Shown piece by piece: positions 36,897-39,939 of a stretch of DNA of 64,000 nt (the first letter of the stretch is position 1; every line of letters begins with the position of its first letter). The stretch lies in assembly GCA_018432315.1 (NCBI GenBank), contig JAHDLB010000002.1:62001-126000 (forward strand), written 5' to 3'. The stretch comes from Anaerolineae bacterium (GTDB taxonomy: Bacteria > Chloroflexota > Anaerolineae > Aggregatilineales > Aggregatilineaceae). Below the pieces are notes generated by a model. It was not told the origin of the DNA. It saw only the letters and a program-made list of their open reading frames with translations, and did no database searches. A program made the position numbers and the translations under genes.

Positions 36897-37775
36897 CTAC
36901 ACCACATCCGCGAAGGTTTTTTCCATGCGCCGGAAGTAATACGCCCCGCCGATCAGCAGCAGGACGGCGACCACCGCCGACACCGCGACCATCGGGCCGG
37001 GCGAGCTGCCCTTGCCGAGCAGCGTCCAGCGGAACCCTTCGACGACGCCGACCATGGGATTCAGTCCGTAGAGCGTTTTCCACGGGTCGTTGAGCAGGCT
37101 GGCCGGGTAGACGACCGGGGTGGCGTACATCCAGAACTGGGTGATGAAGCCGATCAGGTAGCGGATGTCGCGGTATTCGGCATTCAGCGCGGCGAACCAC
37201 AGCCCCACGCCCAGCGCCGTCACGCCCGCCAGCAGCAGGAACAGCGGCAGCCAGATGATCGAGGCCGCCGTCGGGTAGATGTCGTAATAGATCATCATGC
37301 CGAACAGCACGAGGAACGACAGCAGGAAATCGGGGATCCCCGCCAGCACGCCGGAGATCGGCACCACCAGCCGGGGAAAATAGACTTTCTTGATCAGCCC
37401 GGAGCTGCCGACCACGCTGCCGGCAGCGCGCGTCAGCCCCCCGGCGAAGAACGTCCACGGCAGCAGCGCGGTGTAGTTGAAGATCGGGTAGGGCATGCCG
37501 TCCGAGGGCATCTTCGCCAGCCGCCCGAAGAAGATGCTCATCACGATCATGGTGAAGACCGGCTGCAGGATGGCCCAACTGGCGCCCAACAGCGTCTGCT
37601 TGTAGCGGACCTTGATATCGCGCCACGTCAGGAAGTAGAGCAGCTCGCGGTACTGCCACAGCTCGCGCAGCCCCAGCGACACCCAGCCGTGCGCCGGTTC
37701 GATCAGGATGATGTCGTCCGAGTCATCGTCGGCGGCGGAGGGCAGCGGTTGAGGTTGGACGTTGGAGAGCGACAT
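36897..37775 (-). CDS. wzm: polysaccharide ABC-2 permease, Wzm-like
   Basis: A 292-residue permease with about six membrane segments. The family region RDIKVRYKQTLLGASWAILQP follows a cytoplasmic N terminus of about 40 residues; WTFFAGGLTRAAGSVVGS, LIKKVYFPRLVVPIS and the C-terminal EGFRWTLLG are standard for Wzm/TagG. With Wzt it exports the undecaprenyl-linked glycan. I chose the ATG at 37775; a GTG at 37811 is an alternative and neither has a clear SD. The promoter at 37854-37881 lies upstream. Confidence 0.9.
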   Translation of the reverse strand: MSLSNVQPQPLPSAADDDSDDIILIEPAHGWVSLGLRELWQYRELLYFLTWRDIKVRYKQTLLGASWAILQPVFTMIVMSIFFGRLAKMPSDGMPYPIFNYTALLPWTFFAGGLTRAAGSVVGSSGLIKKVYFPRLVVPISGVLAGIPDFLLSFLVLFGMMIYYDIYPTAASIIWLPLFLLLAGVTALGVGLWFAALNAEYRDIRYLIGFITQFWMYATPVVYPASLLNDPWKTLYGLNPMVGVVEGFRWTLLGKGSSPGPMVAVSAVVAVLLLIGGAYYFRRMEKTFADVV

Positions 37776-37853
37776 CGACAACAGGCTTTCTATGCCCCGG
37801 CGCGGGATCACATTCGCGCCGACTGCGGGCGTAAAGGTGTGAGCGTGGCGCCT

Positions 37854-37881
37854 ATTGTACCCGGCGGCATACCTCTGTCAA
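37854..37881 (-). promoter_or_regulatory. promoter of the wzm-wzt run
   Basis: On the - strand TTGACA (37876-37881), a 16-base spacer and TACAAT (37854-37859) form a near-consensus sigma-70-type promoter. Transcription would start near 37847, about 72 bases before the ATG at 37775. It probably drives wzm, wzt and the sulfotransferases and glycosyltransferases to 22679. Confidence 0.75.
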
Positions 37882-37928: not shown

Positions 37929-37958
37929 TTGACAAAACAAGGTCGTTTCGAGTTAAAT
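37929..37958 (+). promoter_or_regulatory. promoter of candidate small RNA
   Basis: TTGACA (37929-37934), an 18-base spacer and TTAAAT (37953-37958) read on the + strand, opposite to the neighbouring genes. The -35 is consensus, the -10 matches 4 of 6. It lies 48 bases from the - strand wzm promoter, pointing away from it. Confidence 0.6.
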
Positions 37959-37964
37959 AGATGT

Positions 37965-38045
37965 GTCAACAGTCGCTGCTGGCTGTTTGCGACGCGCATC
38001 ATCCTTAGCCCCGTCATTCATACCTGGACGGGGCTTTTATTTTTT
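37965..38045 (+). ncRNA. candidate small RNA with promoter and terminator
   Basis: Starting about 7 bases after the -10 box, this transcript of about 80 bases would carry a 5' hairpin (GTCGC 37972-37976 with GCGAC 37989-37993), a single-stranded linker and a Rho-independent terminator. No gene follows on the + strand: the next feature is the converging end of the gene at 38044. A 15-codon frame at 37961 (MCQQSLLAVCDAHHP) has no RBS and would begin before the predicted start of transcription. The class of RNA is unknown. Confidence 0.5.
38007..38045 (+). terminator. Rho-independent terminator
   Basis: AGCCCCGTC (38007-38015) pairs with GACGGGGCT (38027-38035), 9 pairs with an 11-base loop, followed by TTTTATTTTTT. 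The T-run is on the + strand only, so it serves the + transcript, not the - strand gene ending at 38044. Confidence 0.85.
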
Positions 38046-39939
38046 AGGGCTGCGCGTCGGGGGGGACCACCTCGTAGATGCGCGCGCCGTTGCCGTCGTA
38101 CACCAGGCGCAGGTAGGGCAGGCTCTCGATGGCCTCGGCGTGGTACGACGCGGCTTCGTCCAATGGCGGGCGCCAGCGGATCATATCCTCGAAGCGTTCC
38201 GGCTCGCCGAAGACCTGCGGCACCAGCACGTACTGCACGCCGTATTCAGCAAAGAGGTCCCGGTGATCCGCCGCGTCGTCCGCCGGGTCCAGCCAGAACG
38301 CGCGAAACGCGTCCTGCTCAGCTTCGGCCCGCTCGGTGTGGCGGAAGAACGGCTGCGGGCGGAAGAAGACCGTGTCGCGCTCGCTGATCACGGGCGCCCA
38401 GTCGGCTTCGTGCGGCCCCGGATGGTTGAGCACGCGCGCGTCTTCGGGCGCGTTGTCGCGCAGCCAGAGCATAGCATCCACGTCGGCGGCGGACGAGAAC
38501 GCGCCGTAGAACGACAGGTGCTCTTTGCTGTAGGCCAGCAGCGGATCGAAGAACACGACCGCCGCGACGATGCCCGCCAGCGCCAGCGTCGCGACCGGCA
38601 GCGCCAGCCGCCCGATCCACCGGTCGATGCGCCGCGCGCCCAGTCGGTCGATCAGCCACAACAGGCCCAGCCCGCCCAGGACGGTGTACGGGATGATCGG
38701 CCCGTGCCACGCCAGGCTGAACGGGTAATCGTACTTGAGCAGCGGCTCCATGACGTCGGGGAAATTCGACTCCAGCAGGCCCAGCGTCGAGAACTCCACG
38801 ATGCCCACCAGCCAGACGAGCATCAGCAGGTGGGCGGGCTTGCGCTGCCGCAGGCCGATCAGCGCGCCGATGGCCGCCAGCCCGACGATGATTCCGCCGT
38901 GCATGACGACCAGCGTGCGCCAATGCTGGCGGTCGACGGCGAACGGCGATTCGATGTCCGAGCCGAGCAGGTCCAGCAGGCTGTTCAGCCACGGCGAGAT
39001 GATACCCAGCGCCACCAGCGGGATCACGGCGGCGATCACCAGCCAGGACGCGGCGCGGGGCCGGGGGCGGCTGAAGACGAGCAGCACCAGCCACGGCACG
39101 TAGCCGATCATCAGGGCGATGGTCGTGTCCGGCTGGCTGAGCGGCACCCCCGCCAGGCAGATCGCGGCGAACAGCGCGCTGGACCAGCGCCACGATTGCA
39201 GAAAGCGCAGCGTGAAGAACAGGAACCCCAGCGCGAACGTCAGGCTGAGCAGCGCCGTGTAGTGCGAGTCCATGAAGGCGGTGACCATCCCCGTCCCGCC
39301 CAGCGCGGCCAGCATGAACGCGCGCCCGGCGCGCGGGCCGTCCAGCTCGCAGCCGAAGTCGTAGGCCAGCCACACGAACAACACCGCCGTCGCGGCGCCA
39401 ACCACCAGTTGCAGCGCGTGAATGCCCAGCGTGAACCGGGCGCTGAAGTGCGCGATCAGCCCGACGAAGCCCGGCGAGTAGAGATAATCCGTCTCCGGGT
39501 GCCAGGGCGCCAGCGTGGTGAAGTCTTCCCCGTCGCGCAGGGTGAGCGCCAGGTATCCGAATCCCTGCGCGTCCGTGTCGAGCGGCACCGGCAGCACCAG
39601 CACCACCGCGCCGAACAGCGCGATCACCAGGACCAGGAAGGCCATGTCCCGCTCGCCGGGCCAGCGCCACGGCGCCGGAGAAGCGACGCCGCGATAGTGC
39701 AGCGCCGTGATCCACGCCAGCAGGGCCACCAGCCCGAACGTCACGAGCCACACCGTATCGCCCAGCGCCGCCGACCACCCGACCAGGGGCGCGGCGAACC
39801 ACGTCGCGTCGACCACCACGGCCAGAAACAGCACGGCGCCCAGGCCGATGCGCGCGCCACCGGTCGGCAGGATCGACGCGACCAGGGTACCCACCCCCAG
39901 CAGCACGACAACCAGCACGAGATACGCGATAATAGCCAT
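38044..39939 (-). CDS. polytopic membrane protein, GT-C-like
   Basis: A 631-residue membrane protein with about 13 hydrophobic segments in the first 480 residues and a soluble C-terminal domain of about 130 residues. The loop PVPLDTDAQGFGYLALTL after the third or fourth helix has acidic residues, as in GT-C glycosyltransferases that use lipid-phosphate sugars. The C-terminal part (AMLWLRDNAPEDARVLNHPG) resembles the dolichyl-phosphate-mannose-type family end where WIRENTP-like motifs occur. I place it only as a probable lipid-linked glycosyltransferase. It ends on the T-run of the small-RNA terminator. Confidence 0.62.
   Translation of the reverse strand: MAIIAYLVLVVVLLGVGTLVASILPTGGARIGLGAVLFLAVVVDATWFAAPLVGWSAALGDTVWLVTFGLVALLAWITALHYRGVASPAPWRWPGERDMAFLVLVIALFGAVVLVLPVPLDTDAQGFGYLALTLRDGEDFTTLAPWHPETDYLYSPGFVGLIAHFSARFTLGIHALQLVVGAATAVLFVWLAYDFGCELDGPRAGRAFMLAALGGTGMVTAFMDSHYTALLSLTFALGFLFFTLRFLQSWRWSSALFAAICLAGVPLSQPDTTIALMIGYVPWLVLLVFSRPRPRAASWLVIAAVIPLVALGIISPWLNSLLDLLGSDIESPFAVDRQHWRTLVVMHGGIIVGLAAIGALIGLRQRKPAHLLMLVWLVGIVEFSTLGLLESNFPDVMEPLLKYDYPFSLAWHGPIIPYTVLGGLGLLWLIDRLGARRIDRWIGRLALPVATLALAGIVAAVVFFDPLLAYSKEHLSFYGAFSSAADVDAMLWLRDNAPEDARVLNHPGPHEADWAPVISERDTVFFRPQPFFRHTERAEAEQDAFRAFWLDPADDAADHRDLFAEYGVQYVLVPQVFGEPERFEDMIRWRPPLDEAASYHAEAIESLPYLRLVYDGNGARIYEVVPPDAQP

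Follow-up and report, generated by a model that had tools for sequence, protein, structure and literature searches.

The window analyzed here, a 64,000-nucleotide stretch of DNA from an Anaerolineae bacterium, contains on its + strand, at positions 37929–38045, an element which is well supported as a free-standing small RNA gene. Comparison among genomes has shown that it is an independent non-coding RNA gene, conserved across the family to which the window belongs, and the RNA is probably a real, previously undescribed regulator. The explanation favored as a whole, to which we assign a probability of about 0.62, is that of an independent small RNA gene whose product would pair in trans with other transcripts through a conserved core, without the help of Hfq.

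The element runs from promoter to terminator between wzm (36897–37811, − strand) and a gene encoding a GT-C/DUF6541-like membrane protein of 631 aa (38044–39939, − strand), the latter assigned on a Pfam DUF6541 match. The −35 element, TTGACA (37929–37934), is followed by a −10 element, TTAAATA (37953–37959), which can be read either as TTAAAT (37953–37958, 18-nt spacer) or as TAAATA (37954–37959, 19-nt spacer), the second option having the spacing of most relatives (18–19 nt, mostly with TACAAT). The predicted small RNA, of ~80–85 nt, occupies positions 37965–38045, its 5′ end being placed 6–7 nt downstream of the −10 element. It is matched at 84.6 bits by covariance model R1 (G000:C2:99959-100045, corresponding to window positions 37958–38044). 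This RNA would comprise a 5′ hairpin, CAGUC-GCUGCU-GGCUG (37970–37985), a nearly invariant core, TGCGACGCGCATCATCC (37988–38004), which is the candidate pairing region, and an intrinsic terminator (38007–38045) made of a 9-bp stem, AGCCCCGTC/GACGGGGCT at 38007–38015/38027–38035, an 11-nt loop and a T-rich tail, TTTATTTTTT. Downstream, the + strand carries no gene, the next one being the converging GT-C/DUF6541-like gene. The promoter, 5′ hairpin, strong terminator and lack of a following sense gene, on which the first-pass annotation had based its proposal of a small RNA, were all found at this place. A generic promoter and terminator scan had missed the site because its −10 element lacks an A at position 2 and its terminator has an 11-nt loop.

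The distribution of the element was established in two steps. First, 171 bases of DNA were used to search 61 related genomes, and nine others belonging to the family proved to have the same layout. A covariance model was then trained on these ten transcripts, with the promoter left out. The first-pass annotation had suggested such a covariance search and had considered that a lack of conservation of promoter and stems in close relatives would speak against the RNA. The transcript-only model returned one strong copy per genome, at 53–85 bits, in 15 of the 18 family genomes, and promoter, stems and core all proved to be conserved in close relatives, a degree of conservation which places the element beyond chance. 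Outside the family, no strong match was obtained in 154 genomes of the order, nor in evenly drawn samples of the class (396 genomes) and of the phylum (400 genomes). The next best model scores in the order or class did not exceed 31 bits, and those inspected were attributable to chance: the order matches at 20–31 bits, where loci were given, corresponded to tRNAs, coding sequence or other terminators. One match of the class sample (L178, 29.9 bits) lay outside the inspected set. Among the family genomes without the element, two (G003 and G012), which are only 73–77% complete, have no GT-C neighbor gene either, and the third, G006, has kept the GT-C gene with a different sequence past its 3′ end. 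Viral contigs were rejected as carriers, five pattern matches having at most 11.2 bits or no score with the model, and a search for the element in phage records gave no match. The public contigs bearing the element, as recognized from its pattern and from the model score, are labeled Chloroflexi, Anaerolineae, Anaerolinea or Thermoflexus. Two public MAGs which carry the RNA, L050 (DYGX01000008.1, Thermoflexus sp.) and L094 (DYEN01000544.1, Anaerolinea sp.), are nearly identical at this locus, so that at least one of the genus labels is probably wrong.

The promoter is itself a conserved part of the element. TTGACA stands at the matching position in 15/15 family copies, and a TACAAT −10 element is present in 12 of them, with a 19-nt spacer in ten and an 18-nt spacer in two; the −10 element is weaker in the three others, including the window copy. 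Although the promoter lay outside the model, the five members that only the model detected all have TTGACA at the right distance, and four of them TACAAT, which counts in favor of a real small RNA gene; four of these five members share their genus with one training sequence and hence do not represent five independent confirmations. The spacer measures 19 nt in ten copies (window 37929–37959, L105–L115), against mostly 16–18 nt at the other TTGACA-N-TACAAT sites of the window genome. Since some activator-dependent promoters characteristically have a long spacer of fixed length, the one observed here may reflect regulated transcription of the RNA.

Structure prediction and covariation support the same transcript. 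The predicted RNA has a folding energy of −33.3 kcal/mol (z = −4.4), and none of 200 dinucleotide shuffles was as stable. In a 14-sequence alignment, 92.6% of the cells pair and 6 of 14 pairs show compensatory changes on both sides, while the covariation score, 0.244, exceeds those of all 500 shuffles (mean 0.157) and of all slid versions (maximum 0.084). This signal comes mostly from the terminator, in which four pairs show compensatory changes and whose assignment is based on these changes and on the side of its tail. Nearly every copy has its T-rich tail on the + side (only a weak one in L105 and L116) and the − side has no T-run, which points to the + strand as the RNA strand. When the copies are aligned by hand, all 15 retain the 5-bp stem of the 5′ hairpin, in which compensatory substitutions turn CAGCC/GGCTG into CGGTC/GACCG, GCCAT/ATGGC or GCAAC/GTTGC; the automatic alignment has 86% of the cells of this stem paired.

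The most constrained part of the transcript is the 17-base core, TGCGRCGCGCATCATCC, with the RNA consensus UGCGRCGCGCAUCAUCC. Its pairwise identity reaches 91%, versus 54% in the rest of the transcript, and its mean column conservation over 15 genomes is 95%, versus 55–59% in leader, loops and tail. In the predicted folds, the 3′ part of the core, UCAUCC, is mostly unpaired and the 5′ part is often engaged in local pairs. The fold predicted for the window copy also allows some of the core to pair with the start of the leader, provided that these first few positions are transcribed; the likely 5′ end of the RNA coincides with them or lies downstream of them. Separately, at three loci of genus g2 (L220, L199 and L182), GGCGCGCATCATCCC or GGCGCACATCATCCC comes after a hairpin in intergenic sequence, with no TTGACA promoter; this may be what is left of a second copy of the RNA that has decayed, or a chance resemblance.

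Several other readings of the locus have to be weighed. A short ORF which passes through the core in the window copy alone (ATG at 37961, 15 codons, seen by eye) could suggest a coding element, specifying a small protein or a leader peptide, instead of a non-coding RNA. This is highly improbable, as no start codon is shared by all 15 copies in any frame that crosses the core, the ends and lengths of these frames vary widely, no sense gene follows, and the window-copy ATG falls at or before the likely RNA 5′ end. The adjacent wzm/wzt glycan exporter, which the first-pass annotation had proposed as a regulatory target, has just as little chance of being the partner. A divergent promoter-like site of wzm, TTGACA-16-TACAAT (37854–37881, − strand), does lie ~50 bp from the element in this genome; however, wzm adjoins the element in this genome alone among the 15 copies. 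When duplex energies with the core were calculated for 48 crude gene starts of the window, wzt ranked 12th, wzm 42nd and the GT-C gene 48th, and the best energy equaled that of shuffled cores, so that predicted pairing with wzm, wzt or any other window gene is no better than chance. What survives of the earlier proposal is thus the free-standing small RNA, with its conserved promoter, stems and core, and not its link to the glycan exporter. The constant neighbor is the GT-C/DUF6541-like gene, which is convergent with and abuts the element in 15/15 copies (65–69% identity over the part seen); the promoter-side genes show no homology between genera, while partial conservation is seen beyond the GT-C gene. 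Since this neighbor is constant and the other flank variable, the RNA and the GT-C gene together form the conserved unit, which borders a glycan gene cluster. Such an arrangement could point to a cis element, the RNA or its transcription acting on the GT-C mRNA at its 3′ end, by pairing or by blocking read-through, all the more so as no T-run terminator belonging to the GT-C gene precedes the element and as GT-C orthologues outside the family lack this arrangement, being followed by other sequence with no related element. We nevertheless regard this as quite unlikely: antisense complementarity is automatic in this geometry and leaves unexplained why the 17-nt core stays constant while stems and loops change, and G006 keeps the GT-C gene without the element. 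One in-frame stop was noticed in the GT-C-like gene of G005 (G005:C637:10727-12604) and of G006 (G006:C620:2791-4656) (L139, L149), from either sequencing error or gene decay.

Because cis-antisense pairing with the GT-C mRNA requires no fixed core, a partner in trans, RNA or protein, is more likely. A real RNA acting through a protein, which the core would bind or sequester instead of pairing with RNA, would account for an almost invariant core sequence, and it would fit the outcome of the target search, in which no conserved mRNA target emerged from the loci and window genes inspected. Allowing G-U pairs, each genome contains between one and twelve 14-base complements of the core (~100 places in the 18 genomes), counting, in most genomes, the antisense strand of the RNA gene itself; none recurred at orthologous start codons in the ~60 loci inspected. 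The recurrent complements were rejected as targets, since they fall within coding regions that are themselves conserved (peptide WMMRVSQQ of a solute-binding protein), as was a near-perfect match at a glycosyltransferase start codon in G014, which is absent from the sister species G001. Yet no known protein-binding family of Rfam matches the element, and pairing sRNAs usually have just the layout seen here, being small, with a single core enclosed by two hairpins and with an intrinsic terminator. The protein-based reading is thus rather unlikely, and pairing of the core with RNA in trans is preferred.

According to this preferred explanation, an RNA gene of ~80–85 nt would have descended vertically within one family of Anaerolineae (Chloroflexota) and would be transcribed from its own sigma-A-type promoter to its own intrinsic terminator, as suggested by their sequence and conservation. 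Two stable hairpins would flank the exposed, nearly invariant 17-nt core, which would base-pair in trans with one or more transcripts and so alter their translation or stability, in either direction. A search of the 18 family genomes gave no hfq gene, the control search being positive in five known genomes, and the RNA would therefore act without Hfq. More speculatively, the core might coordinate several mRNAs across the family in this Hfq-independent manner, perhaps those of the cell-surface glycan pathway that the gene borders.

Small RNA regulation is almost unstudied in Chloroflexota, and the literature searched, with partial coverage, contained no sRNA described in Anaerolineae and no trans-acting sRNA described in Chloroflexota. 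An RNA conserved in single copy, whose candidate pairing core is precisely delimited, offers a concrete point of entry to Hfq-independent RNA regulation in this phylum. The locus also illustrates that the reading of a single genome can spot a real RNA gene and still misassign its partner, the wzm neighbor being accidental and the GT-C gene conserved.

Identity with a known RNA family was rejected, as all Rfam scores fall below gathering. No Rfam 15 family reaches its gathering score over the element (best 17.2 bits versus 50), and over the whole window only a tRNA located elsewhere does so. RF00519 (suhB/mmgR sRNA) is likewise a small free-standing RNA with a hairpin and a terminator, but the element scores 13.6 bits with it, a chance-level value against a gathering score of 41 bits. 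RF02278 (Betaproteobacteria toxic small RNA) gives a weak 17.2 bits across the core and terminator, while its gathering score is 50 bits and E = 0.44 in a 351-base search. Judged on sequence features, the element is a new RNA family which shows what is expected of a trans-encoded sRNA: its own conserved promoter, an intrinsic terminator on the RNA strand, and neither an encoded protein nor a sense gene downstream. It departs from trans-encoded sRNAs in general, and from the Hfq-dependent ones in particular, by the absence of a detectable Hfq in the 18 family genomes and by its restriction to a single Chloroflexota family. With the trans-encoded base-pairing sRNAs of bacteria it shares an intergenic location, a promoter of its own, a length of ~80–100 nt, and a hairpin followed by a partly single-stranded conserved core and an intrinsic terminator.
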